A stretch of DNA of 14,024 bases. It comes from Treponema sp. Its GTDB lineage: Bacteria; Spirochaetota; Spirochaetia; Treponematales; Treponemataceae. The stretch is from the NCBI GenBank assembly GCA_003455655.1, contig DMQP01000145.1:1-14024 (forward strand). The letters are read 5' to 3'. Both the position numbers and the translations under genes were made by a program. Below the pieces are notes generated by a model. The model did no database searches. It worked only from the letters and a program-made list of their open reading frames with translations, and had not been told where the DNA came from. Within the stretch, counting starts at the first letter, position 1. Every line of letters starts with the position of its first letter. This document shows positions 1-14,024 of this stretch, piece after piece.

Positions 1-2
1 CG

Positions 3-2270
3 AAAAACAAAAGAGAAAATAAAAAAGAGCAAAAGAAAAAAAATAAAGCCGAAAAGAAGCAAAGAAAATTAGAAAAAAAGCAAGCAAAAAAAACGGCAAA
101 AGTAGAAAAGAAACTGGAAAAAAAGCATCGAAAAGAAATGCGCATCCAGCAAAAAAAAGAACGCAAAGCTCAGAAAAAACAAGAACGCATGAATCAGGTA
201 AAATTTCCCATTGGTGGAAAACTTATTGCAATCATATCTCTTTTGTTCATTATAGCTTTGGGCGGTCTAACATATCTTGTGTCGGTATTTGTGAGTGCAG
301 ATGTTCGTAACAGTGCCGAAGAAAATAACCTTACAACTGCAAGCCGAGTTGCAGCAGATACAGAGAACCGCATTGTCAGTACGGTTTCATCAGTAGGATT
401 ATTCCTTGACTTACTGCGCACAACAGGTTCAGACGAAAACGAAGTGCGTACCGTTGAAACTCTTTTCTTTGAACGCAATAGTGATGTTATTGCAGTATAT
501 CTTCCTGCGACAGAAAGGCTTTATGCAAGTCAAAGTTTTTTACTGTCCCACGAAATAGACGAACAGTTGGTTTCTTCATACTTTGCTCAGGAAGCAGATG
601 TTATTGAAGAAGCTGCAAACGGTTCTTTTGGTCTTGAAAACGCAACTCCTTTTTTCTCTGTTTCTTCTCTTGCTATTTTCTTTCCGCTTACTACAACGGG
701 AACAGATAATGTGGTTGCCATTTTGTATTCTTCAGAAAAAATTGCAGAAAGTTTTTCTTCAAGCAGTATAAACCAAACCTTCTTTGTAAATAACAATGGA
801 GATGTTCTTTTACACAGCGACGCTCAGCTTACTTCTCAAGGGGCAAACGAAGGCGACAATCCTGTGGTTAAGTCTATGCTTGAATCTTCTACGGGAAACA
901 CAGCCAATCAGATAAACTTTGTGCAAGACGAAGAAGAATATCTTGGTGCTTATAAACGTCTTACCATAGGTAATGGTGGCATTGTTACTACAGTAAAGGC
1001 TTCTATTATTCTTGAAGGAGTGAACAGAACAACGAGGCGAAACCTCTATATAAGCATTGTTATTCTTGCGATTGCAATTTTGTGTGTTTATTTCTTTGCT
1101 AAGACTTTGAGTAGTCCTCTAAAAAGATTGTCTCGTGTTGTAAACGAAATAAATCAGGGCAACTTCAATACTGAACTCTTTAGCGAATTGGGTAAGGGTA
1201 GCCGTGATGAAGTTGGTGTTTTGGTAAAGAACACTTATCATGAACGAGAAATTTTAAATACCTTTACTAAGCTTACAAATAAGGGTGTTACCAAAGCAAT
1301 TATTAAAAAAGAAATTGACTTTGACCCCCACTTAAAAGACATTACCATTTTCTTTAGCGACATCCGCGGATTTACTGCAATTAGTGACGGATTTAAAAAT
1401 CGCTTTGGAGAAAAATCTGCTGCAGAAATTATTGGCTTCCTTAACGATTATATGAGCCGAATGGTTACTTGTATTTCGAGAACAGGTGGTGTTGTCGACA
1501 AATTTGAAGGCGATGCTATTATGGCTTGTTGGGGTGTTCTTAGAAACGAAAATCTTGACTGGGAAAAACAAGAAGAATCAGAAGCTCGTGCTTTGGCAAA
1601 AAAACATCATGATCAGTATATAAAAGAAGATGCTCTTTCTGGTATTACCTGTTGTATTGCAATGCGCTATTCTCTTATGAAATACAACAAAGATGCACAA
1701 GAATTTACTGAAGCGCACAAAGATCAAGTACTTGCCCCCTATAAGCCACATATTCGCATTGGATCAGGTCTTAACTCTGGACGCGCAACCGTAGGCTTTA
1801 TGGGTTCATTCGAAAAAATGGAATTTACTTCTATTGGTGATGCAGTAAACTTTGCAAGCCGAACAGAAGCTTCTACCAAACCTTGTGGAACAGACATTCT
1901 GATGACACAAGAAACATACGACATTCTCAAATACGATTACATCCGCTGTAAAGAAAATAACTTTACAATTAAGAGTGAAAACAAAAAGAATGAAATTGTG
2001 GTAGAGCAAATTCCTGTAGAGTTTGAAGTAAAAGGTAAGGGCAAACAGCATTTCTATGGTGTTGTAAATATGCCTGGTTTTGATATTCAGGATTTCTTTG
2101 GTCAGGATAATCCCGACTTTAGAATTGATATGGATTGCGCACGGACAGTTGGACCCATTGGCCCCAAAAATCTTTCGGAAGTACGGGCACTCTTGGGTAT
2201 ACCTGAACCTGATTTTTCTACGGTGAACCTAGATGCGAAAGAGAATAAGATTCAAGTCTCTGCTCCTTGA
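3..2270 (+). CDS. Membrane-bound class III adenylate cyclase with Cache-like sensor and HAMP domain (5' end outside window)
   Basis: Predicted to make cAMP from ATP in the cytoplasm in response to a periplasmic signal. Residues are numbered from the ATG at 138. Lys/Glu/Gln-rich cytoplasmic N-terminus; membrane segment 28-50; periplasmic sensor about 51-302, Cache-like, with FFVNNNGDVLLHSD near 215-228; second membrane segment 303-321; HAMP about 322-375 with a DEVG motif; cyclase domain about 395-642. Catalytic residues look intact: metal-binding Asp408 in FFSDIRGFT and Asp459 in KFEGDA, adenine-contacting Lys455, and transition-state Asn571 and Arg575 in GDAVNFASR. Thr564 occupies the purine-selecting position, as in class IIIb enzymes. 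The 138 ATG has no Shine-Dalgarno site, and the frame stays open upstream to base 3 as 45 further codons (21 Lys), so the true start probably lies left of the window. About 30 extra residues sit inside the cyclase domain between 467 and 538. The last 38 bases overlap the next gene. Confidence 0.93.
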   Translation, partial: KNKRENKKEQKKKNKAEKKQRKLEKKQAKKTAKVEKKLEKKHRKEMRIQQKKERKAQKKQERMNQVKFPIGGKLIAIISLLFIIALGGLTYLVSVFVSADVRNSAEENNLTTASRVAADTENRIVSTVSSVGLFLDLLRTTGSDENEVRTVETLFFERNSDVIAVYLPATERLYASQSFLLSHEIDEQLVSSYFAQEADVIEEAANGSFGLENATPFFSVSSLAIFFPLTTTGTDNVVAILYSSEKIAESFSSSSINQTFFVNNNGDVLLHSDAQLTSQGANEGDNPVVKSMLESSTGNTANQINFVQDEEEYLGAYKRLTIGNGGIVTTVKASIILEGVNRTTRRNLYISIVILAIAILCVYFFAKTLSSPLKRLSRVVNEINQGNFNTELFSELGKGSRDEVGVLVKNTYHEREILNTFTKLTNKGVTKAIIKKEIDFDPHLKDITIFFSDIRGFTAISDGFKNRFGEKSAAEIIGFLNDYMSRMVTCISRTGGVVDKFEGDAIMACWGVLRNENLDWEKQEESEARALAKKHHDQYIKEDALSGITCCIAMRYSLMKYNKDAQEFTEAHKDQVLAPYKPHIRIGSGLNSGRATVGFMGSFEKMEFTSIGDAVNFASRTEASTKPCGTDILMTQETYDILKYDYIRCKENNFTIKSENKKNEIVVEQIPVEFEVKGKGKQHFYGVVNMPGFDIQDFFGQDNPDFRIDMDCARTVGPIGPKNLSEVRALLGIPEPDFSTVNLDAKENKIQVSAP

Positions 2271-5031
2271 CCTATTTGTTTTACTACTTTGTCTCTCTCT
2301 TGCAGGTGGAGGAGCCTACCTCTTTTGGAAAGATTTAAACTCTTCTTCTGTGCGTTCAGACAAAGAATGTATTGCAACGCTTTCATATAAATATCGCATT
2401 TCTCAACGAAAATATCAGGACCGCGCTGTTTGGGAACGTCTTTCTCAAAATTCACCTCTGTACAACGGAGACATTATACGCACTGCTGAACTTGCATCTG
2501 CGGTAATTCACTTTGACGATGGAACAGATTTAAACCTTTCAGAAAACACCATGGTTCAGATTTTTTATGATGAAGAAAATGGTCTTCAAATTACTGTTGA
2601 CGGTGGTGACATTCAGGTTGACTCTTCTTCTCAGTCTACAGCTGTTTCTGTTCGCTTAGACGATGGCTCGGTGGTAAATGTAGGTGCCGGTTCTTCTCTT
2701 GCCGCAAAAGCTGATGCTTCAGGTTCTCGTAATGTAGAAGTTAAAAGCGGTATTGCAAGTCTTATGACTGAAGACGGACAGACAACATCTCTTTTAAACG
2801 GTGAATCGGTAAGCATAGAAAATGGTGGAGAAGTTGTGCGTAATCCCATAACGGTAACTTCTATTCCCCGAGATATGTGTCTTCTAAACATTGAAGGACA
2901 AAAGCGCCCTGTTACACTTGTGTGGAACGCTTCAAGTGATGCTGGTGCCGAAAATGGTGTTATTGTTCAAACATCGCTTTCAAAAGATTTTGCAGAAATT
3001 CTTACAGAGCAGACCGTAACCGATGCTTCAAGCTGTACACTTACAACTCCAGAAAGTGGTCTTTTGTATTGGCGTGTCTTTACTTCACAGGCTGAAGACA
3101 AAGCTTCTGAAGGTAAAATTACGGTGCAAAAGGTAAGTGCCCTTAATGCAACTTCTCCTGCTGATTCAGGTGAAATACGATATCGTTCAGCTAGTCCTCG
3201 TGTTATGTTCAGGTGGGAAGGAAATTCTTTTGCAGAGTATTACCGAGTAACTGTTTCTTCTGCTCCAGATTTAAGCGCTGCTCCTTTAACCTTTGACGCA
3301 ACAGATACTTTTGTAAGTGTCGATTCATTAACCGATGGCACTTGGTACTGGCAGGTAAGTCCCTATTATCCCAATGGAATTGCTTTTGCTGGTGAAAGCC
3401 CCATTTATTCATTCAGCATTACAAAAAATGTTGTGATTGCTTCCCCATCTCTTACTATTCCCGCAGATAAAGCAACTATTTCTTACCGTGATACCATAAG
3501 CACAACCTTTATGTGGAAGTCTGAACTTCGCGATGCATCGTATCAGCTGTTGATTGCTCGTGACAGTTCTTTTGCAAATCTTGTGTATGATGAAACAACA
3601 AGTGCGCTTCGTCTTCAAAAAGATTTTACTCCTTCGGAATTACCTGATGGAACATATTGGTGGAAAGTAATTCGTTCTTCTTCTAACAGCGATGATTTGA
3701 CGCCTGAATCAGAAGCTCGACAGTTTACGATTGCACAATATGTTCCCCAACAAAATAAATTAACATATCCTGCAGATGGTGCCCGCTTAGAACAAGATAA
3801 AATGTCTGCAGTAAAGTTTTCGTGGAAGTTAGGAGACGACTACAAAAACGTAAAAGCTCAGTCTGTTATTCAAATTTCACGCTCAGAAAATTTTAACACA
3901 CTTGTAATGGAACGCAGTACCGATTCTCTTACGCTTGATGGTTTGCAACTTGAAGAGGGAACTTATTGGTGGCGTTTAGGTGCTCGACTTGCTTCTGGTT
4001 CTGTTGAAGGTTTTACTGTTGCAAATCGTTTTACTGTTTTGGGTCAGCTTTTACCTCCTATGGTAACTACTCCTGCTTCTGGCGGAGAAATGTTGTATAC
4101 CGGTTCAACTCCACTTGAGTTTAAATGGACAGAAGTGAAGGGTGCAGATTATTATAATGTTCGTGTCTACGATGTCGATGACAACTTAGTAGCACAAAAT
4201 GCTTCAGTAAAAGAAAACACTGCTCAGTTTGCACTTCCCACAGGAAAATATGTGCTTAAAGTTCAGTCGGTTATTGCAGCAACAGAAGCTGATGCAGCTC
4301 GTCAGAGTGATTTTACAAATCGTTCTTTTACTGTTCGGCAACCTGATGCAATTACACTTGTTTCTCCTGCAGCAAGAGGGCGCATAGAAGGACTTACTGC
4401 TATTCGTCAGCCAACAGTCTTTACGTGGGCACCTGGAAAAGATTCAGCTTCATCCTATCAGTTTGTTCTTTCGCGACAAAATGCAGACGGTTCTCTTCGT
4501 GTGGTGGAACAAAAAACGGTAACGGGTACAAGCCTTTCTATTTCTCGCATTACTCCAGGAACTTACAGTTGGCGCGTTAATGCAACTGCTTCTGGCGGCT
4601 ATGCAATAGATTCAGCTCCTTCACAACTTACGGTAACTGCAATACCGCCTCTACCGAAGCCTCAACTTTCAAGTCCTGTTCATAATACCGTTTTAGGGGC
4701 TACATACTTTAAGAACAATCGAAGCATTAGCTTTAGCTGGAAAGCAGTAGCAGGGGCAACTTCCTATACTTTCGTGCTGTACAAAGTAAATGCTAACGGA
4801 ACTCGTGTTGCTGTTCAAACAAACCGAAGACTTAATGCAACTTCAGTACAAGTTACCGATTTAACTAAACTTGATGTGGGAACCTTTGTTTGGGAAGTTA
4901 CCGCTTATGCACACGCAAGTGACGGTTATGAAGAGCGTAGAAGTGAAAGCTCTTCTGCAACATTGAAAATAGATTTTACCGCACCGCAACAGGTTGAAAC
5001 GGTTGATCCGGGGAGGTTGTATGGTGAATAA
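2233..5031 (+). CDS. Membrane-anchored periplasmic protein with FecR-like domain and seven Ig/Fn3-like repeats
   Basis: 932 residues. A basic N-terminus (MRKRIRFK) and hydrophobic segment about 11-31 form a signal anchor or uncleaved signal peptide, placing the rest in the periplasm. Residues about 65-195 resemble the FecR domain: NGDIIRTAE, then HFDDGTDLNL, then glycine-spaced strands ending LLNGESVSIE. From about 205 to 914 come seven units of 95-100 residues, each with an early F-x-W strand and a late aromatic-rich strand (YWRV 279, WYWQV 371, YWWKV 475, YWWRL 578, YVLKV 673, YSWRV 778, FVWEV 885). FecR proteins elsewhere sense or relay signals to ECF sigma factors; no sigma factor is present here, so that role is not implied. 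The gene starts inside the cyclase gene behind a weak GGTGA (2222-2226), which points to translational coupling. Role unknown; a periplasmic scaffold or ligand-binding partner of the cyclase is a reasonable guess. Confidence 0.9.
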   Translation: MRKRIRFKSLLLDLFVLLLCLSLAGGGAYLFWKDLNSSSVRSDKECIATLSYKYRISQRKYQDRAVWERLSQNSPLYNGDIIRTAELASAVIHFDDGTDLNLSENTMVQIFYDEENGLQITVDGGDIQVDSSSQSTAVSVRLDDGSVVNVGAGSSLAAKADASGSRNVEVKSGIASLMTEDGQTTSLLNGESVSIENGGEVVRNPITVTSIPRDMCLLNIEGQKRPVTLVWNASSDAGAENGVIVQTSLSKDFAEILTEQTVTDASSCTLTTPESGLLYWRVFTSQAEDKASEGKITVQKVSALNATSPADSGEIRYRSASPRVMFRWEGNSFAEYYRVTVSSAPDLSAAPLTFDATDTFVSVDSLTDGTWYWQVSPYYPNGIAFAGESPIYSFSITKNVVIASPSLTIPADKATISYRDTISTTFMWKSELRDASYQLLIARDSSFANLVYDETTSALRLQKDFTPSELPDGTYWWKVIRSSSNSDDLTPESEARQFTIAQYVPQQNKLTYPADGARLEQDKMSAVKFSWKLGDDYKNVKAQSVIQISRSENFNTLVMERSTDSLTLDGLQLEEGTYWWRLGARLASGSVEGFTVANRFTVLGQLLPPMVTTPASGGEMLYTGSTPLEFKWTEVKGADYYNVRVYDVDDNLVAQNASVKENTAQFALPTGKYVLKVQSVIAATEADAARQSDFTNRSFTVRQPDAITLVSPAARGRIEGLTAIRQPTVFTWAPGKDSASSYQFVLSRQNADGSLRVVEQKTVTGTSLSISRITPGTYSWRVNATASGGYAIDSAPSQLTVTAIPPLPKPQLSSPVHNTVLGATYFKNNRSISFSWKAVAGATSYTFVLYKVNANGTRVAVQTNRRLNATSVQVTDLTKLDVGTFVWEVTAYAHASDGYEERRSESSSATLKIDFTAPQQVETVDPGRLYGE
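2845..4974 (+). repeat. Seven tandem Ig/Fn3-like protein repeats
   Basis: Seven diverged units of about 95-100 codons, recognised by a recurring G-T/L-Y-x-W-R/K/Q-V strand followed about 25 residues later by a new Pro-rich unit start such as LTYPADGA or LVSPAARG. They are repeats at protein level; I see no long identical DNA repeats, so the array looks old and stable. Confidence 0.8.
5011..5016 (+). promoter_or_regulatory. Shine-Dalgarno site fixing the start of the third gene
   Basis: GGGAGG lies 4 bases before the ATG at 5021 and 7 before the in-frame GTG at 5024. It lies inside the end of the upstream gene. It argues against a TTG start at 4994, because it would then fall inside the coding sequence and 4994 has no site of its own. 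GTG 5024 remains possible. Confidence 0.75.
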
Positions 5032-6364
5032 AAAGAGCCTCCTTCTTTTGCTGCTAACTTTCTGTTTTGCTTTTTCTTTTGCTCAAGAAACAGAAGAAGA
5101 GAGTGAAGAAACTAAGTTTGAACAGCGCATTGAATGGAAAGCAGATGCTGCCGCTTTGGAATACAAAGTTGAAGTTCAAGCTGAATCTGGTGGAGAAATT
5201 TCAACCTACTCAACAGATCAAACGTATATCGATTTGTCTCTTACCGTTGGCATGTGGAAGTATCGTGTTCATGCAATAGACTTTTTGGGACGCGAAGCTG
5301 CCGTTAGCCAGTGGCGTTCTTTTGCAGTCTTTAAGGCAAGTGTTCCTGAAGTTGATGTAATTCAAACTTCTGTAACCTATTATGCATCTGATACAGTGGT
5401 TAAACTACCAGTTGTTATCTTCAACATAAACGGTCAGTCTACGGTTGTTCTTGAAAATACAACAACTCAAAAAACGTATCCGGTTACGGTAACGCTAAAC
5501 GAAGGTTCTGGTGGTAAAGAATCAAGTATATCTGAAGTGTTTAGGTCTTCTGCGGTAAGTGTTACCACTGTTCCTCAGGGTATTTACCGTCTTTTAATAA
5601 CGAATCAGTCGGGACTTTCTGCACAGTCAGAATCAATAACGATTATAAAAGATCGTGGTTCAAATGCTGAACAAGACGCTCTTGAAGAGTTGGTTCGCAT
5701 GCAGGCAGAAGAAGAAGCTCGTAAGCATCTTTCTGAAGGGGAAGAAATTGACACGAGTGAAGAGGCTATGATTCAAAAAGAAGCAGAGATAGATGCTCTC
5801 AAAAAACAGCTTGCAGACCGCACGACCGGTCCTACTCGTAAACAGCTAGTCTTAACCTTAGGTGGTGCCCTTTCTCCTTATGACGGTTCTTTTGCAAATC
5901 TTACAGGTTTGGAAATAGCACCTGAGATGGGAATTCATTTTACTATTCTTCCATTCATCAACAAAAAGAATACCATTCGCTTTGGTTTTGAATTGTATGC
6001 TGATGAAGTACTGTATCCTGTTTTTAACAGTTATATTGAATCCTTTTTGAGTGCTTCTTTAGCGGGAGCAAAACTTGTTTTCCAACAGCGTATATTTAAC
6101 GATGCCTTTAGTTATTCTGTTAAAGCTGGTGTTTCTGCATCTGTTGTTTTTGCAGAAGTTAAATATACCAATGACTTTACTGGTAGGGAAGAGGTGCAAC
6201 TTTTAGTTCGAGGATATCCTGCTTTAAGTGCGGGTCTTTCCCTTGACTGGAAGCCTACTTCAAAACTACTTCTTTCTGTTGGTGCCGATGCAACCTATAT
6301 TCTTTCGGTAACAATGCCTACGCTTGCAATTATTCCTTACCTTGGTGTGGGTGTGCACTGGTAG
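5021..6364 (+). CDS. Secreted protein with Ig-like domains, coiled coil and probable C-terminal outer-membrane beta-barrel
   Basis: 447 residues from ATG 5021. Signal peptide MVNKKSLLLLLLTFCFAFSFA with likely cleavage after Ala21. Residues about 33-107 form an Ig/Fn3-like unit (RIEWKADAAALEYKVEVQ, then MWKYRVHAID) clearly like the repeats of the preceding protein. About 108-210 is a second beta-rich region. Residues 217-265 are charged and helix-forming, a likely coiled coil. The last 170 residues alternate polar and hydrophobic residues in beta-strand fashion and end YLGVGVHW; a terminal aromatic residue is typical of outer-membrane beta-barrels. The gene overlaps the previous one by 11 bases. 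I infer an outer-membrane protein whose periplasmic part could meet the Ig-repeat protein. From memory, T. pallidum TP0483, reported to bind fibronectin, may be the positional counterpart; this is unchecked. The barrel assignment is only moderately sure because spirochaete barrels are poorly conserved. Confidence 0.88.
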   Translation: MVNKKSLLLLLLTFCFAFSFAQETEEESEETKFEQRIEWKADAAALEYKVEVQAESGGEISTYSTDQTYIDLSLTVGMWKYRVHAIDFLGREAAVSQWRSFAVFKASVPEVDVIQTSVTYYASDTVVKLPVVIFNINGQSTVVLENTTTQKTYPVTVTLNEGSGGKESSISEVFRSSAVSVTTVPQGIYRLLITNQSGLSAQSESITIIKDRGSNAEQDALEELVRMQAEEEARKHLSEGEEIDTSEEAMIQKEAEIDALKKQLADRTTGPTRKQLVLTLGGALSPYDGSFANLTGLEIAPEMGIHFTILPFINKKNTIRFGFELYADEVLYPVFNSYIESFLSASLAGAKLVFQQRIFNDAFSYSVKAGVSASVVFAEVKYTNDFTGREEVQLLVRGYPALSAGLSLDWKPTSKLLLSVGADATYILSVTMPTLAIIPYLGVGVHW

Positions 6365-6389
6365 TGACACTATCAGCTCTTAAAAAATC

Positions 6390-6419
6390 TTGCAGTGTTA
6401 TTGCCTCTTAGTGTATAAT
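6390..6419 (+). promoter_or_regulatory. Sigma70-like promoter upstream of the lipoprotein operon
   Basis: TTGCAG at 6390-6395 (3 of 6 matches to the consensus) and a perfect TATAAT at 6414-6419, separated by 18 bases, within the only sizeable non-coding gap of the window (6365-6435). Transcription would begin near 6426, about 10 bases before the next ATG, giving a very short leader. The rest of the gap shows no convincing terminator hairpin, so read-through from the upstream genes is possible. Confidence 0.6.
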
Positions 6420-6435
6420 AGTAGATTGGAGTATT

Positions 6436-7635
6436 ATGGGCAAAATAGCCTTGTGTGAAGAAAAGAAAAACCGAGCGCTTCTCTTAAAAAAACGCAAGAA
6501 CTTTGTTGCGTTAGTTCTGTGCGTACTTTTACTTTGTTTGCTATCAGCGTGCGAAGAAGTTACTAACCTTATGGAAGATGCTCCCTTTAGAGAAAACTTG
6601 TACGATTCTTATACCTCTTCATACGAATTCTATAATGATGATCCTCAGTTTAATTCCGCAGCAGAGCCTGTCTATATTTCTTATCGCATAGGTTCTGTTC
6701 AGAATTTTTCTGATAAAGCTTTACATTCTCTTATTGCGCAAGTTGCAAGTGCTGATCATCCTTTTATAGGTTGGGAGTATTTGTACAATCCCCGAGATGG
6801 AAATAGTACTGTTCCTTCAAATTTTTCATTTAACGATTTTAATTATATTTCCAGTGCCCTTATTTCACCACAACCAGCTGCCTTGCTTGCAGTAACAGGT
6901 TCATATTATACCGTAAAGCATTACAAACAAGATCCAGATCTTTCAGGATATTCTCTTGCAGATACAGACCGTCTTTCGGGTGCTACAGACAGACCTTCTC
7001 GTGCTCGAGAAAAATCCTATGTTGGTTTTGAAGCAGATCCTTCTTGGACACAACTAACGGTTACTTCAGATGGTTCTACAACAGTCGAAATTTATTATGA
7101 CCGCAAAATGTATCTGCTTACCATGGATGCAAACGGTGGAGACAATGCAGGCGTAACAGAAAATTCTATAGGCATGCGTTACCAATCTCCAACGGCAATT
7201 CCTACTAATACCTTTAGCCGTGACGGTTACACTTTTGACGGATGGGCGCGAAGTGCAAGTGGTGGAAGAGTGTTTGTAGATGGTGACAACTATCTGATTG
7301 GAAATAAAAATGAAACTATCTACGCTGTGTGGAAAGCTAACGAAATTACCGCTTCTGTAGAAATGGAAAAATTTGGTGCAGATTATGAACTAGAAGTTGA
7401 AGTTACTACGACCGCAGGGGCTGTAATAATTAAGTGGGAAACTCGTGACAGTGAAAGTTTTGACATAGATGCATCTATTCCCACAACAGCATATACTCGT
7501 TCAACTGCAGACGGATACACAACGCTTACTATTGCAACTGCAGATTTAGTTCCAGGAACCTACGACATTTATGTTGAAGCAGCCAATGCAGGACAATTGC
7601 CCTGTTCACGCGATCTTAAAGTTCGCATACCATAG
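6436..7635 (+). CDS. Lipoprotein with MucBP-like and InlB-type (Listeria-Bacteroides) repeats
   Basis: 399 residues. A long basic n-region (about 22 residues) is followed by a hydrophobic stretch and the lipobox Leu36-Ser-Ala-Cys39, so the mature protein should be lipidated at Cys39. Residues about 77-155 form a degenerate unit containing FIGWEYLYNPRDG. Residues 158-224 resemble the MucBP-like pattern YTVKHYKQD, later SYVGFEAD, then DGSTTVEIYYDRK. Residues 225-300 form an InlB/Listeria-Bacteroides repeat: MDANGGD, GYTFDGWARS, then ETIYAVWKAN. The last 100 residues look like an Ig-like domain (WETRDSESFDID, then PGTYDIYVEA). Such repeats are common in cell-surface and adhesive proteins, so a surface role is likely, with the ligand unknown. 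A GGAG at 6428-6431 precedes the ATG by 4 bases. It is followed closely by the giant lipoprotein gene, with which it probably shares an operon. Confidence 0.92.
   Translation: MGKIALCEEKKNRALLLKKRKNFVALVLCVLLLCLLSACEEVTNLMEDAPFRENLYDSYTSSYEFYNDDPQFNSAAEPVYISYRIGSVQNFSDKALHSLIAQVASADHPFIGWEYLYNPRDGNSTVPSNFSFNDFNYISSALISPQPAALLAVTGSYYTVKHYKQDPDLSGYSLADTDRLSGATDRPSRAREKSYVGFEADPSWTQLTVTSDGSTTVEIYYDRKMYLLTMDANGGDNAGVTENSIGMRYQSPTAIPTNTFSRDGYTFDGWARSASGGRVFVDGDNYLIGNKNETIYAVWKANEITASVEMEKFGADYELEVEVTTTAGAVIIKWETRDSESFDIDASIPTTAYTRSTADGYTTLTIATADLVPGTYDIYVEAANAGQLPCSRDLKVRIP
7108..7335 (+). repeat. InlB/Listeria-Bacteroides-type repeat domain, copy 1
   Basis: Encodes about 76 residues with the order ANGGD, GYTFDGW, then YAVWKAN that marks this repeat family. 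A related copy lies in the next gene at 8353-8571. Confidence 0.8.
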
Positions 7636-7639
7636 GAGG
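7634..7639 (+). promoter_or_regulatory. Strong Shine-Dalgarno site overlapping the stop codon of the preceding lipoprotein gene
   Basis: AGGAGG, continuing as AGGAGGAGGG, overlaps the TAG stop at 7633-7635 and sits 8 bases before the ATG at 7648. It supports that start and co-translation with the gene before it. Confidence 0.85.
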
Positions 7640-7647
7640 AGGGCAGA

Positions 7648-10600
7648 ATGAAACGATACTTTCTTTTAGTTCTTAGCCTTGTAAGCCTCCTCTTTACTGC
7701 TTGTGAAAATTCCCTTATTCTTTCCCATGACGACAGTGCATATCTTCACATAACAACGGACGCAGGGTATTCATCAGATTCTAGAACGCTATTTCCTACA
7801 GTTCCTTCGCTTTCAAGTTTTACAGACTTTACGCTCTCTGGTACTCTTTCTCCCGGGGGAAGCGCACAAACCCTTGCAACAGCATCTTCATTGAGTGCGC
7901 TTGAATCAAAGCAAATTAAAGTTAACACGGGTGTGTGGGACTTTACACTGACTGCTGTTTCTTCTGGTGTTACCTATACCGCAGACATTAGCGCTTTTAC
8001 TGTTGTTGCAGGTACTAATAATCTTTCCTTTACTCTTGAACCAGACAACAGTCTTTTAGGACAGTTTTCACTTACCCTTTCTTTCCCTGCAACAGATGTT
8101 ACTAAAGTTGAGGCATCTCTTGAAGACCGAACTTCGGGAAATGTTGTACTTGCTGCTGAAGAACTTACGGTTAGCAGTGGAAAAATTGTTTATGCAAAAA
8201 ATTCTCTTACTCCAGGAACCTATCGGATTGTAATTGATTTTTACGGTGGTGCTGACAGTTCTCTTTACTTAAACACTTACCGCGAATTAGTTCACATTGC
8301 TCCTGGACTTACCAGTAGTGCAAACAGAAGCATAACTTCACTCAATGATGTGTATACAATTAGCTATCACTTTAACGGCGGAGAAATTGCTTCTGGTACT
8401 GCGGCTGAAGCATACACAAGGCGTCTTTCTACTGATATAGATCTTCCTGTTGCAAAGTATGAAGGAAAGTACTTCTGCGGATGGTATACTAACTCTGCTT
8501 GTACTGGTAGTGCACTTTCTCAAATTACAGTGGGAATGACAGGAGACTATAATCTGTATGCAAAATGGCTTGAACCAGTTGTCTATGTTAACGGAACAAG
8601 CGGAGACAACACAAACGGTGGCTTTTCAGCAGATGATGCTGTTGAAACACTTAACGAAGCTTTTGTTCGCATAAAAGAAACGCAAGATAATGCACAAACA
8701 CTTTACGCTGACACAGACCTAAGAGACTGGACTGTAAAAATAAGTAATCGAGTAACCGGTTGTTCAGTCATGAATGATACTGATGTTCCTGTAAACTCTT
8801 TGACTATTGAAGGTACGACTGGTTCTTCTACAGACATGCTTGATGCTGACGGTGAAGCCTATGCAGTTTTAGATGTAGATAGCAGTGTAAGTCTTACTAT
8901 TAAAAAAGTGCAAATAAGAGGTGGAACAAATTTAGATGGTGGTGGACTAAGCATACATGGTTCAACAAATGTAACAATTGATAGCTGTCTTATTACACAA
9001 AATACTGCAACCCGTTATGGCGGTGGCATTTATAAAGAGGGTACTGGCTGGCTTGCACTTTCAGATACACAAATAAGCCAAAACAAAGCAGAAAAACCAC
9101 TTTCTTCTACCGATCCAGCTTGTGGTGGTGGTCTTTATATTATGTCGGCAAGTTCTGTCGTTTTAAGTGGTTTGACGGGTTATCCTGTTCATATTGAAAA
9201 TAATGAAGCAACAGATGACGGTGGCGGTATTGTTTCTCATGTAGGTCTTGTTTTCAGATATGGTTGTATTGAATTTAATACTGCAGGAGCCAATGCCGGT
9301 GGAATGCAACTTATTGGAGCCTCTGCTACACTGTATGAGAATGTTTCTGTTGAAGGCAACGAGGCAGGAGCTGATGGTGGCGGTCTGTATCTGTCTGGTT
9401 CATCTGCAACTCTTACCTTGAGTGGAGCGACTGTTGCCTCAAATAAAGCTACAGAAAATGGTGGCGGTGTTTTTGTTTCAAGTGGCAGTTTTTTGAGTTT
9501 GACCGAAGATGCTGTTATAGGAAATGATGCAGTAAGTGCTTCAGCAACAGCTGTAAATACAAACCATTCTAACTCTGCAAAAAAAGGCGGTGGTGTTTAC
9601 AACGAAGGCACTCTTCTTGGTGGTTCAGATGCTGCTCCTCTTGATGCCGGTGGTATTTTCTATAACTATGCTACAGAAGCTGGTGGTGGTATTTATTCTA
9701 CAGGCGCAGTTGCTTTTGTTGGTGGGCATGTTTCCTACAATGCAACAGGTTCAAGTGGTTCTGGTGGCGGTCTGAATGTAACCTTAGGTTCTGGTAATAT
9801 AAACTGTAAATCGACAACCTTTAAACAGAATTCTGCAGGTTTAGACGGTGGTGGTCTTTTTGTTCAAGGGCGAGAAGCTTTCCTTACGGGATGTTCTCTT
9901 ACCGATAATGCTGCTTCTCAGAACGGTGGAGGCCTTTATGCAAGCAATGCTGCTATTACGGTAGCTCGAGCAGACACGCGCATAGAAAAAAATACAGCTA
10001 CTTCTCAGGGTGGTGGTCTTTACATTGGAAATGAGGGAAGCCTTTCTATGACAGAGGGCCTTGTTTCAAATAACGAAGCTGCAAGTGGTGGTGGCTTGTG
10101 TATTAGTTCTGGAGCAATGACACCTCTTTCTACTATCTCAGGAACGACTTTCCAGGAAAATAAAGTAAGCTCTGCTGGTGGAGCCATTGCAGTAATGACA
10201 AATGCAAGTGGTTTACCTTGTGCGCTTTCGTATGATGATGTCAATATAATAAAAAATGAATCAAATTCTCAAGGTGGTGGTCTTTACATAGATCAAGCTT
10301 GTTCTGTTACTATGATTTCAGGTAACCTCTCTCAAAACACTGCAAAAGGTACACAATTTGCTGGTGGCGGTGTTTACAATATGAACGGAACCTTCGACTT
10401 TGAGGGAGGAACGATTGTATCTAACAAAGCAACAGCAGGTTCTGGTGGCGGTATTTGTAACTATACTTCTTCAGGCTACAGCGCAAATGGTCATAGTGCT
10501 TTAGTAACGGTTTCTGCAGGAACAATTAATTCAAATACAGCTGCAAAAGACGGTGGCGGTATATACAACGGAGCATCCAGTACCTTTACCATGACAGGCG

Positions 10601-11880
10601 GTCTTATTGGTTTAACCGATATGTCTGGTGCAAATACAGCAAGTTTACGCGGACAGGGTGTTTTCAATGACGGCTTTATGAACATGGAGGGTTCTGCTCA
10701 CATTACGGCAAACAACGATGTCTACCTTAGCGAATATGTAACAGACACTCTGCATCCTGCAAACAGACTTATAAATGTAACCGGAACTTTAACAGAAACG
10801 GTTGCTGCAACTATTACTCCTGCTGTTTATAGAGAAAGTCTTTTAAATGCTACTCCAGTTGTAACTGGCACATCTGCTATGTTGCAAGTGACAAAATTTG
10901 CGGTAACACCAGATGCTGGCGGAAACGCTTGGTATGTCTTCTGGGCGGGAACTCGTGGCTGTATAATGAAAGTTGGAATGACTGGAGAAATTCGCTACAT
11001 AAGTGAAAGTGGCGTTGACTCTACTGGCCGCGGACTTGTCGAAGCACTTCCTTATAAGACTTTGGAATATGCGGTTAATTCATTTACTAATAAAAACGCG
11101 GTAGACTCTGAAGGAAACCCCACAAACATTGTATATGTTCTTTCAGATTACACGCTTACTAGCAGCATGTATAACGAAACAACTACAACTGATGTAGCCT
11201 TCAATATGATAGGACGAAAGACAGATGCTAGTCCTGTTGTACTTACTTGTAACATAGGTATGTCTGGTTCTGCATTCAATGTAAAGGGTCAAAACATTAC
11301 CATGACAAACTTTGCCTTTGAACAGAATTCATCTGTTACAAATTCATACGCTGCTGTTTGTGTTGAAGGTGGAAACCTTACTATGAACGACTGTACTATG
11401 ACAGGCTTAAAAGCAAACGGTGTTGCTGCAATCCATGTTGGAAAGAGTGCAAGTGGTTCAAATGGTACAGTAACACTTTCTAATGTAACTATTCGCAATA
11501 ATGTTTCAGTCGCCGGTGTTGGTGGATGGCGTGGTGGCGCGATCAATGTTAAAGATGGTATTCTTGTTATAGCAGGAAAGACGATTGTTAAAGATAATAC
11601 AAATGATTTAGGACATCCTGCAAATGTTTGGATTGGATTCACTGATGGACCCGATATAACTGTATTTAATCCTCTTGTTATAAAAACTGATTTGACTGGC
11701 TCTCAATTTGGTATATCTTGTGGTATTAGTCCGCTTACTTCAAACAAAGCTATAACGCAAGATTATGTGGCAAGTGGAAACAGCACTAACATGGATGACA
11801 TACAAAGCATCTTTACTAGTGACGGCGGAAACGGCATTGCTTATAGTGATGGTGAAGTTTGTCTTACTGCAGGTTACTAA
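7648..11880 (+). CDS. Giant surface lipoprotein with InlB-type repeat and Gly-Gly-Gly right-handed beta-helix; ends at an in-frame TAA
   Basis: 1410 residues. Lipoprotein signal MKRYFLLVLSLVSLLFTAC with lipidation at Cys19. Residues 28-230: beta-rich N-terminal module with an SRTLFP motif. 236-308: InlB-type repeat (FHFNGG-like start, FCGWYT, LYAKW). 310-341: beta-helix entry motif (VYVNGTSGD). About 425-980: beta-helix rungs, 17 copies of GGG followed by Leu, Ile or Val plus three GG variants, most preceded by N-x-A such as NTAT-RYGGGIY. 1013-1110: cap module (NNDVYL, AATITPAVY, VTKFAVTP). 1113-1146: second entry motif, then a weaker beta-helix block to about 1405. The rungs resemble polymorphic outer membrane protein (Pmp) repeats, but no autotransporter barrel follows; anchoring is by lipid. 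The frame continues open after the stop at 11878-11880 up to 13407, so this is probably the N-terminal three quarters of a broken gene. A truncated but lipidated, possibly functional surface protein is still expected. Confidence 0.92.
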   Translation: MKRYFLLVLSLVSLLFTACENSLILSHDDSAYLHITTDAGYSSDSRTLFPTVPSLSSFTDFTLSGTLSPGGSAQTLATASSLSALESKQIKVNTGVWDFTLTAVSSGVTYTADISAFTVVAGTNNLSFTLEPDNSLLGQFSLTLSFPATDVTKVEASLEDRTSGNVVLAAEELTVSSGKIVYAKNSLTPGTYRIVIDFYGGADSSLYLNTYRELVHIAPGLTSSANRSITSLNDVYTISYHFNGGEIASGTAAEAYTRRLSTDIDLPVAKYEGKYFCGWYTNSACTGSALSQITVGMTGDYNLYAKWLEPVVYVNGTSGDNTNGGFSADDAVETLNEAFVRIKETQDNAQTLYADTDLRDWTVKISNRVTGCSVMNDTDVPVNSLTIEGTTGSSTDMLDADGEAYAVLDVDSSVSLTIKKVQIRGGTNLDGGGLSIHGSTNVTIDSCLITQNTATRYGGGIYKEGTGWLALSDTQISQNKAEKPLSSTDPACGGGLYIMSASSVVLSGLTGYPVHIENNEATDDGGGIVSHVGLVFRYGCIEFNTAGANAGGMQLIGASATLYENVSVEGNEAGADGGGLYLSGSSATLTLSGATVASNKATENGGGVFVSSGSFLSLTEDAVIGNDAVSASATAVNTNHSNSAKKGGGVYNEGTLLGGSDAAPLDAGGIFYNYATEAGGGIYSTGAVAFVGGHVSYNATGSSGSGGGLNVTLGSGNINCKSTTFKQNSAGLDGGGLFVQGREAFLTGCSLTDNAASQNGGGLYASNAAITVARADTRIEKNTATSQGGGLYIGNEGSLSMTEGLVSNNEAASGGGLCISSGAMTPLSTISGTTFQENKVSSAGGAIAVMTNASGLPCALSYDDVNIIKNESNSQGGGLYIDQACSVTMISGNLSQNTAKGTQFAGGGVYNMNGTFDFEGGTIVSNKATAGSGGGICNYTSSGYSANGHSALVTVSAGTINSNTAAKDGGGIYNGASSTFTMTGGLIGLTDMSGANTASLRGQGVFNDGFMNMEGSAHITANNDVYLSEYVTDTLHPANRLINVTGTLTETVAATITPAVYRESLLNATPVVTGTSAMLQVTKFAVTPDAGGNAWYVFWAGTRGCIMKVGMTGEIRYISESGVDSTGRGLVEALPYKTLEYAVNSFTNKNAVDSEGNPTNIVYVLSDYTLTSSMYNETTTTDVAFNMIGRKTDASPVVLTCNIGMSGSAFNVKGQNITMTNFAFEQNSSVTNSYAAVCVEGGNLTMNDCTMTGLKANGVAAIHVGKSASGSNGTVTLSNVTIRNNVSVAGVGGWRGGAINVKDGILVIAGKTIVKDNTNDLGHPANVWIGFTDGPDITVFNPLVIKTDLTGSQFGISCGISPLTSNKAITQDYVASGNSTNMDDIQSIFTSDGGNGIAYSDGEVCLTAGY
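8353..8571 (+). repeat. InlB/Listeria-Bacteroides-type repeat domain, copy 2
   Basis: Encodes about 73 residues with YTISYHFNGGE, KYFCGWYTNS and YNLYAKWLEP in the order expected for this repeat. It is followed directly by the first beta-helix entry motif. Confidence 0.8.
8920..10587 (+). repeat. Beta-helix rung array with 17 GGG and three GG variants
   Basis: GGG followed by Leu, Ile or Val recurs every 22-35 residues in most of the array, at residues 431, 458, 493, 525, 577, 605, 647, 679, 706, 734, 760, 788, 814, 876, 906, 933 and 969; GG variants are at 550, 668 and 844. Each rung usually has N-x-A or N-E-A a few residues before the glycines, giving the F/I-x-x-N plus GG(A/I/L) logic of Pmp-type repeats. 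At DNA level the glycine stretches are runs of GGT/GGC/GGA. Confidence 0.85.
10684..10977 (+). repeat. Beta-helix cap module, copy 1
   Basis: Encodes residues 1013-1110 with NNDVYL, then INVTGTL, AATITP, VTKFAVTP and a closing W/G-rich strand. The same order recurs at 12799-13047 (SNDAYI, ILVNASL, AATITP, YTKFIVTP), so this is a repeated domain that closes a beta-helix block. Confidence 0.75.
11878..11880 (+). other. In-frame TAA that splits the giant lipoprotein gene
   Basis: The codons read GGT TAC TAA TTT GAC CCT, and the flanking frame is open for 1410 codons before and 508 codons after. TAA followed by T is normally an efficient terminator, which makes natural read-through less likely than mutation or error. 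Confidence 0.85.
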
Positions 11881-11976
11881 TTTGACCCTGCTGACACTTA
11901 CGACTATGATGCATTAGTAGAGCGTACTACAGACGGTTGTGCAGGACTGGTACTTCAATTTAAGAACTCAAGTGGA

Positions 11977-13407
11977 GTGGTTACGCTTGCAGATTCACTA
12001 ACATACACGGTAAAGGCAGAAGACGGAACAACGATTATTTCTGGAACAGACACGAATAATTCGGCAGTAAGTCTTGACCTTCCTCCTTTGCAGAACATGG
12101 TAGTTTCTGTGTCTGGCGTTAAAGATGGCATAACCGCTCTCTTCTCTCAGACTGTTTCTGTAGCCGCAACAGATGTGTGGGTAAGCCCCAGCGGAAGTGA
12201 CACCATTTCTATTTCAGCAGGCCTCGGAACCTTAGCTTATCCGGTTGCATCAATAAATCATGCGCTTACATTTATAAACAACGCTAGCGTAGATGCAACA
12301 ATTCATGTAAGTGGACAAGTTTCAGGCAATGCACTTATAGATTCTGTTAATGCTGCAACACTTACCATTACGGGAACAAGTGCTTCTTCTGACAAACTGT
12401 ATGGTAACAACGCCGGTGCAACACTTACGGTAGATACAGGGGTTCCTGTTACGGTTAAAAACCTTACTATTACAGGTGGTCGTAAAGTTTCTTCTTTGAC
12501 AGGAAGTGCTGCACAAACAGATCCAGCCGGTTATGGTGGCGGTTTGTTTATTTTAGCGGGATCAGATGTAACATTAGCTTCTGGCTGTATAGTTACAGGC
12601 AATACGGCAAGCCTTGGTGGCGGCCTTTATAACAGCGGTACTTTGCTTATAGATGGTGCTACTATTAAAGATAATACTGCAAATAAGGGTGGCGGTATAT
12701 ATGCTGGTGGCACTGCTATTTTGTCTGGCGGAACCATAGAAGATAATACAGCAACCTATGGTAGCGGAATGTATGTTAGCGTAGATTCTGAAGTTGCCAT
12801 GACAAATACTGCTTGTCTTGAATCTAGTAACGATGCCTACATTGAAACAGATGGATCTATTTTAGTTAATGCTTCTCTTGATGCATCAACGGTAACGGCT
12901 GCAACAATTACTCCACAAAGCTATGCAGTAGGAACGACAGTCTTGTCTGGCTCTGCAGTTGGAACACAATACACTAAGTTTATTGTTACTCCTCAGCTTG
13001 TAAGTGGTTCTCCTGTTTCTTGGGCAATTGACGGTATGGGAAAGTTGGTAAAACCTGATGCAGGCGGACTTTCTGTGGTAGATGATGATGTAACACTTAC
13101 CATTTCTTCAACTACAGTAAGTGCAAGCGCAAGTACCAAACTTCGCTTTACCGTAATTCTAGATGAAGGTTCGGCTACAGAAACAGATTTGACAACAACA
13201 ATTCCTGCAGCAGATTGGACTATTAAAGTCTTTAGCGGTGCTTCAGAAATAACATCTATGTCTTACTTTACAACAACGCTTTCTTCTACAGAACGTTCAC
13301 TGACAGTTTCTTCTGGCATACCAGCGGGGACAATCTTTACTGTCTATGTAAGTGCAACATATAATGGTCGCTCTTATGGCGGATCATACACAATAACCGT
13401 TACCTAA
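11977..13407 (+). CDS. Orphaned C-terminal part of the beta-helix lipoprotein (downstream of the in-frame stop)
   Basis: 476 codons from the first possible start, GTG 11977; the real open frame extends back to 11881. No signal peptide or lipobox is present, and no spaced Shine-Dalgarno site precedes the GTG. Numbered from GTG: Ig-like linker 1-63; beta-helix entry motif 67-100 (VWVSPSGSD, YPVASINHAL); rungs with GYGGGLF 186, LGGGLYN 213, KGGGIYA 238 and the weaker YGSGMYV 261; cap module 275-357; Ig-like C-terminal domain about 365-475 ending YTITVT. There is no autotransporter barrel or sorting signal. It is in the same frame as 7648-11880 and shares its domain types, so it is best seen as that gene's severed end. 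If translated alone it would stay in the cytoplasm and probably be non-functional. Confidence 0.7.
   Translation: MVTLADSLTYTVKAEDGTTIISGTDTNNSAVSLDLPPLQNMVVSVSGVKDGITALFSQTVSVAATDVWVSPSGSDTISISAGLGTLAYPVASINHALTFINNASVDATIHVSGQVSGNALIDSVNAATLTITGTSASSDKLYGNNAGATLTVDTGVPVTVKNLTITGGRKVSSLTGSAAQTDPAGYGGGLFILAGSDVTLASGCIVTGNTASLGGGLYNSGTLLIDGATIKDNTANKGGGIYAGGTAILSGGTIEDNTATYGSGMYVSVDSEVAMTNTACLESSNDAYIETDGSILVNASLDASTVTAATITPQSYAVGTTVLSGSAVGTQYTKFIVTPQLVSGSPVSWAIDGMGKLVKPDAGGLSVVDDDVTLTISSTTVSASASTKLRFTVILDEGSATETDLTTTIPAADWTIKVFSGASEITSMSYFTTTLSSTERSLTVSSGIPAGTIFTVYVSATYNGRSYGGSYTITVT
12799..13047 (+). repeat. Beta-helix cap module, copy 2
   Basis: Encodes SNDAYIE, ILVNASL, AATITPQSY, VLSGSAVGTQYTKFIVTP and SWAIDGMGKL. 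This matches the order of the module at 10684-10977 and supports both halves belonging to one family of Treponema-type surface proteins. Confidence 0.75.
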
Positions 13408-13415
13408 AGGAAATC

Positions 13416-13420
13416 GGAGG
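13416..13420 (+). promoter_or_regulatory. Shine-Dalgarno site of the last lipoprotein gene
   Basis: GGAGG lies 5 bases before the ATG at 13426 in an 18-base gap after the preceding stop. The short gap, without promoter or terminator, argues for one operon. Confidence 0.8.
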
Positions 13421-13425
13421 AACAC

Positions 13426-14024
13426 ATGAAACAGCCTACAAAACAATTTTTTTATGCTGTTTGTTTGTTGTGTTTTTGCTTCTTTGTTTTTTCTTGCAAC
13501 AATTATTTACAGACCCCACAAGCAGAAGAGCCTGATCGCATTTATACCATAACGGGAAGTCTTACTTCTCAACTTGAAGGTGCTGTTCCCAGCGAAATAG
13601 TGGAAGAGATCAGTCAGGAAAGAACGGCAATGCCTGTTATGTCTCTTTCTTCATCTCTGTATTATTCAGTGAGTGCAACAAAAGGTTCAAACACTATAGA
13701 CGGAACGGTCGATGCTACAACATTAAAATATAGCATAGGACTGGGCGTTGGAACATGGACTGTAAGGGTTATCGCCTATAAAAATGCAGCAAAGACACAA
13801 GCTGTGCTTAAAGGGTCTACAACGCTCACTGTATCTTCCAGCGGTTCTTCAGGGACAACTGCCATTGCGCTTAACGGTATTACCGATGACACTTCTGCAA
13901 CGGGAGCTTTTATCCTTTCTGTTTCTTTTGCAACTACGGTTAAAAAAATATCGATTGCCCTGCATAAGAGCGATGGTACTCATACGACAAATAATTATGA
14001 TGTTACCAGTACTTCAAGCAATTT
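13426..14024 (+). CDS. Lipoprotein paralogous to the N-terminal module of the giant lipoprotein (3' end outside window)
   Basis: 199 codons are visible with no stop before the window edge. The signal MKQPTKQFFYAVCLLCFCFF is followed by the lipobox Val21-Phe-Ser-Cys24, with lipidation expected at Cys24. The mature part resembles residues about 45-160 of the giant lipoprotein. It has ERTAMP matching SRTLFP, GLGVGTWTVRVIAY matching the VNTGVWDFTLTAV stretch, and GAFILSVSFATTVKKISIAL matching GQFSLTLSFPATDVTKVEASL. It is therefore probably another modular surface lipoprotein of the same family, perhaps also carrying InlB-type or beta-helix repeats to the right of the window. A good Shine-Dalgarno site and an 18-base spacer place it in the same operon. 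Function unknown. Confidence 0.9.
   Translation, partial: MKQPTKQFFYAVCLLCFCFFVFSCNNYLQTPQAEEPDRIYTITGSLTSQLEGAVPSEIVEEISQERTAMPVMSLSSSLYYSVSATKGSNTIDGTVDATTLKYSIGLGVGTWTVRVIAYKNAAKTQAVLKGSTTLTVSSSGSSGTTAIALNGITDDTSATGAFILSVSFATTVKKISIALHKSDGTHTTNNYDVTSTSSN

Follow-up and report, generated by a model that had tools for sequence, protein, structure and literature searches.

By analogy, the nearest known pattern to the gene described here is that of the natural premature stops in inlA of Listeria monocytogenes, which were carried by 36.1% of 546 food isolates (PMC12427964). The likeness lies in the gene for a large surface protein being intact in some strains and interrupted by a nonsense codon in others, with a truncated product (PMC12427964). 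The present gene is located in a 14,024-nucleotide stretch of a Treponema sp. contig (DMQP01000145.1, positions 1–14,024), the whole of which was analysed and is referred to as the window. InlA is anchored at its C-terminus and loses the anchor upon truncation, whereas the treponeme protein has a predicted N-terminal lipid anchor that truncation would leave in place. In the titles and abstract beginnings that were searched, nothing was evidently about this giant lipoprotein family, and no absence from print is claimed.

At the level of domains, the N-terminal part of the protein resembles the Chlam_PMP/POMP_repeat proteins in containing PF02415 and TIGR01376 repeats above cut-off. It differs from them as a predicted lipoprotein, and sequence profiles of Pfam and NCBIfam matched no autotransporter beta-barrel in either the N-terminal or the C-terminal part. 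Rhombotarget A (PDB 9cdv) and the dextranase AoDex (6nzs) are right-handed beta-helix proteins that share the fold only, at 18% and 11% identity, respectively, with no function implied; a sequence search of the Protein Data Bank returned no chain for the N part (E 0.001) or the C part (E 0.01).

The lipoprotein frame and its internal stop

Positions 7648–13407 of the forward strand, on which all features of the window described here lie, comprise 5760 nt or 1920 codons, which a frame scan resolved into 1410 sense codons, a TAA, 508 sense codons and a terminal TAA. The lipoprotein frame of 1410 codons (the N part, 7648–11880) starts with the ATG at 7648 and ends with the TAA at 11878–11880. The same frame then continues from 11881 with 508 open codons as far as the TAA at 13405–13407, and this former C-terminal quarter (the C part, 11881–13407) has no start signal of its own. 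Apart from the TAA at 11878–11880, no second stop or frame break was found across the 1918 sense codons. The first-pass annotation had described a single TAA interrupting a 1920-codon frame, located after the second beta-helix block and before an Ig-like linker; the scan bears out its count and position, and the placement appears to agree with the alignments.

The N part begins with a strong Shine–Dalgarno sequence (GGAGGAGG, –12.7 kcal/mol) at ATG 7648, followed by a lipoprotein signal peptide predicted from the sequence (residues 1–18, 7648–7701). This precedes Cys19 of the lipobox LFTAC, which is invariant in 10 of 10 aligned sequences, so that both the signal peptide and the lipobox cysteine that mark a lipoprotein are present. 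Two putative beta-sandwich domains follow (~residues 30–132 and 138–228, 7735–8331), assigned from an AlphaFold model and VIA-align matches, and then a Listeria-Bacteroides (InlB B-type) repeat (residues 236–306, 8353–8565; PF09479, E 4e-9; TIGR02543). The first long region of Chlam_PMP-type beta-helix, whose boundaries are approximate (8575–10830), was delimited by PF02415, TIGR01376, motif positions and a partial model, and its GG[GAS]x repeats are mostly spaced by 26–36 residues. The model of the N part has a pTM of 0.43, with residues 309–404 mostly below pLDDT 50.

The C part contains no stop in the reading frame, compared to 16 to 46 stops in each of the other five frames and to a mean of 30 (minimum 16) in 2000 base-shuffled copies; since the other frames and the shuffled copies hold many stops, the open frame is not due to chance. 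In a comparison with the N part and with each of the window's other five genes, the C part was nearest in codon usage to the N part, in keeping with the earlier statement that the downstream part retains both frame and codon style.

Ribosome-site strength was scored as pairing with a generic anti-Shine–Dalgarno tail, with a window background of –7.9 (5%) and –2.9 (50%) kcal/mol. Five gene starts gave –7.6 to –12.7 kcal/mol (–7.6 to –12.0 for the four besides the giant lipoprotein; the cyclase start was left out), and the seven in-frame starts within 11881–12600 gave –0.5 to –6.6 kcal/mol, inside the background range. Past the stop, the frame first offers a start codon with the GTG at 11977. 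The signal-peptide pattern had no match where the C part begins; a looser pattern had one, at an internal GTG (12109) located 76 codons in, without a lipobox and with a weak ribosome site, which we read as noise. One promoter-like match covers 11882–11910, and 11400–13500 contains four such matches in all, compared to a chance expectation of 4.4. With no signal peptide at its beginning, starts at background and promoter matches at chance level, the C part appears to lack all three signals, as first annotated, and an internal start is not supported. The lack of start signals of its own is what is expected of the distal part of a nonsense-truncated allele.

Orthologues and the FecR cassette

A protein search that used the final 321 residues of the N part as query returned two proteins, P0001 and P0002, and one that used its first 330 residues returned 34, including P0124. 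P0001 (1919 aa, from a cluster with 16 member sequences) is one unbroken chain through the stop site. Its alignment with the window is gapless, as 1410 + 1 + 508 residues with exactly one residue between both matches, and 1365 of 1410 residues are the same in the N part (97%) and 496 of 508 in the C part (98%). P0002 (2312 aa, cluster of 15 members) and P0124 (1955 aa, cluster of 3 members) are both collinear with the N and C parts and unbroken. These comparisons were made on the representative sequences of the three clusters, among which no second sequence with a stop corresponding to 11878–11880 was found.

A scan of the genome collection using an alignment of the relatives gave one locus, L001, in a metagenome-assembled genome labelled uncultured Spirochaetaceae RUG11131, which is syntenic with the window and has an unbroken giant gene. 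The same collection scanned with the C part gave nothing, and no matches were found in viral contigs (with the alignment of relatives as query) or in plasmids (with the N part as query). Because the giant lipoprotein of L001 is 99% identical to P0002, the two were counted as one lineage. The codon aligned with the TAA is a sense codon in three orthologue groups (P0001, P0002/L001 and P0124), each with an uninterrupted gene, as expected if the window carries a nonsense-truncated allele of a single gene; the first-pass proposal of one gene interrupted by one nonsense codon is thus upheld. The contrary pattern that it had named, orthologues consistently encoding two proteins, was looked for and is not seen in the relatives found. 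No separate orthologous C-terminal protein was present among the 120 listed of 157 matches (280–889 aa); the top-ranking match aligned over 36% of the query at 38% identity, and none of those listed exceeded 52% identity, reached over 11%. Since the three groups have one gene and no orthologous separate C-terminal protein was found, the stop appears to be derived in the window sequence.

Four genes precede the giant lipoprotein (138–7635), in the same order as in L001: a cyclase (138–2270), a FecR/Ig-like protein (2233–5031), an adjoining signal-peptide protein that is weakly LIC11435-like (5021–6364; 33.7 bits against a cut-off of 380) and a lipoprotein (6436–7635). The next lipoprotein gene, with its own Shine–Dalgarno sequence and lipobox (13426–14022), runs off the window. 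Protein identity to L001 drops along the row, from 86% for the cyclase through 82% (FecR), 72% (signal-peptide protein) and 61% (small lipoprotein) to 62% and 51–56% for the N and C parts of the giant lipoprotein. The C-terminal part of the L001 protein is ~370 residues longer than that of P0001, and the window C part has two overlapping matches in L001 14306–16936, a pattern resembling an expansion of beta-helix repeats. Among 200 genomes of the genus of L001, the one nearest to the window FecR gene is that of L001 itself, at 78% DNA identity, and no genome of the same species as the window turned up among them.

A cassette comprising a FecR/Ig-like protein, a signal-peptide protein and at least one large lipoprotein recurs in the window (2233–13407), in L001 and in L069–L096. 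FecR matches at E 1e-60 were obtained in 122 of the 200 genomes. In the 28 loci fetched (L069–L096), which were chosen for holding FecR, a lipoprotein-like signal frame follows in 27, as judged by eye with a crude pattern (L078 is doubtful, and in L086 the contig ends).

Divergence of the two parts and rival explanations

The differences from P0001 are similar in extent in the two parts, 45 of 1410 residues (N) and 12 of 508 (C). The first-pass annotation had offered a decaying gene as one option, which is disfavoured by this similar distance and by the single frame interruption. The pN/pS ratio against L001 is 0.38 for the N part and ~0.50 for two overlapping stretches of the C part, both rough values as synonymous sites are near saturation. 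The C part thus evolved as coding sequence, as judged from its ratio of ~0.50, and it seems somewhat less constrained than the N part across the L001 distance. When polarised with P0002, the 45 differences from P0001 in the N part comprise 11 window-derived, 13 P0001-derived and 21 unassigned, and the 12 in the C part comprise 6, 3 and 3, respectively; polarisation with P0124 gave 5 window-derived and 7 P0001-derived in the N part, and 4 and 3 in the C part. The C-part constraint and the polarised share on the window side (6 of 9, compared to 11 of 24 in the N part), small numbers all, would also be compatible with a loss that happened slightly earlier. Relaxed selection on the C part was not claimed, the polarised differences being too few.

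The differences from P0001 are clustered in residues 1290–1362 (11515–11733), just upstream of the stop, a stretch in which P0001 and P0002 show no unusual variability. In a scan test, the 11 differences within one 75-residue window were equalled in 5 of 5000 shuffles, and the three other window sizes used, 50, 112 and 150 residues, gave 12, 8 and 8 of 5000, respectively. A recombined tract or a strain-mixed assembly would explain the clustering.

We consider it likely that a derived nonsense substitution in a single ancestral gene has produced a shortened, N-terminally anchored lipoprotein lacking its C-terminal quarter. It is unlikely that the gene of the organism is intact and that the stop instead arose as an error of sequencing or assembly, or as a base from a minority strain that entered a composite consensus. 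Such an error would fit a frame that is otherwise intact, unbroken relatives and the lack of a second sequence with the stop among the cluster representatives, and a strain-mixed assembly could produce the clustering upstream of the stop. However, no frame break occurs in the window's other five genes, of which two extend beyond its ends, and consensus sequences seldom contain substitution errors.

It is very improbable that selection maintains the stop at the population level, as a state in which a variable surface protein is switched on or off or shortened, and that nonsense mutation in the cassette reaches this state repeatedly. The case for this comes from L069 (G159:C179), a lipoprotein in a matching cassette, in which a TAG (2288–2290, minus strand) directly follows a lipobox signal ending in LFSGCLQN, as the fourth codon after the lipobox cysteine, with 727 open codons beyond. 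However, this stop differs from that of the window in both position and codon, and the two sequences each come from a single assembly. In a survey of 196 genomes of the genus of L001 at E 1e-3, 138 matched the N part and 103 the C part, mostly partially; L069 itself is the only one with an internal stop among the 150 N-part matches listed (hand count), and none of the C-part matches listed has one. Interrupted family members exist, and from these sequences they look rare. An automatic flag for startless frames marked 3 of 126 frames in 30 loci (the window, L001 and L069–L096), and it gives no usable rate because the window C part and L069 were both missed; FecR detection also failed in several loci of this survey.

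A repeat-based switch at the site also finds no footing. No tandem repeat is present at the stop and no inverted repeat within 11300–12600, so the repeats at the interruption that characterize phase variation by slipped strands or inversion are lacking, and such a switch is not supported. Of the strain-specific on/off state first suggested, the strain specificity is borne out in so far as a 97–98% identical protein is unbroken, and the switch is not. Programmed readthrough and an alternative code were likewise set aside, as the stop is not conserved in the relatives examined and other genes end in TAA, TAG and TGA. That two proteins are made, by an internal start or by readthrough, is barely credible: the C part is open and conserved in style, but the relatives examined lack the stop, no start has a ribosome site, no signal peptide heads the C part, promoter-like matches are at chance, and the matches listed hold no orthologous separate protein.

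Expected consequences of the probable truncation

The ancestral state of the locus would have been a single gene of a gut-type treponeme, encoding a giant surface protein of ~1919 aa that is lipidated at its N-terminus and rich in beta-helix. On the favoured reading of a derived nonsense substitution, a recent change in a single codon would have created the stop at codon 1411 in the window sequence. Translation would then yield a 1410-aa lipoprotein that retains the signal peptide, the lipid anchor, the N-terminal domains and the initial beta-helix blocks, whereas the last 508 residues would remain unmade. This product may still be displayed on the surface, and perhaps still function as first suggested, because it is predicted to keep the signal peptide, lipid anchor and N-terminal domains. 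The next gene could be translated from its own ribosome site, perhaps at a reduced level because 1.5 kb of upstream mRNA would no longer be translated.

In summary, this giant surface lipoprotein gene most likely carries a nonsense truncation of an ordinary kind at the level of strains, or else a base error. The annotation is corrected accordingly: both frames belong to one gene that contains a stop, and the 476-aa GTG reading frame should not be annotated as a protein in its own right. L069 could hint at recurrent loss, which background mutation or error would fit as well. We regard as a long shot the wider hypothesis that the FecR-cassette giant lipoproteins of gut-type treponemes are recurrently shortened or silenced by in-frame stops, varying the surface, with the window and L069 as two snapshots. 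A real allele would mean that a commensal treponeme tolerates the loss of the final quarter of a giant surface protein anchored at its N-terminus, and the locus would provide a natural deletion for asking which part of the protein matters.
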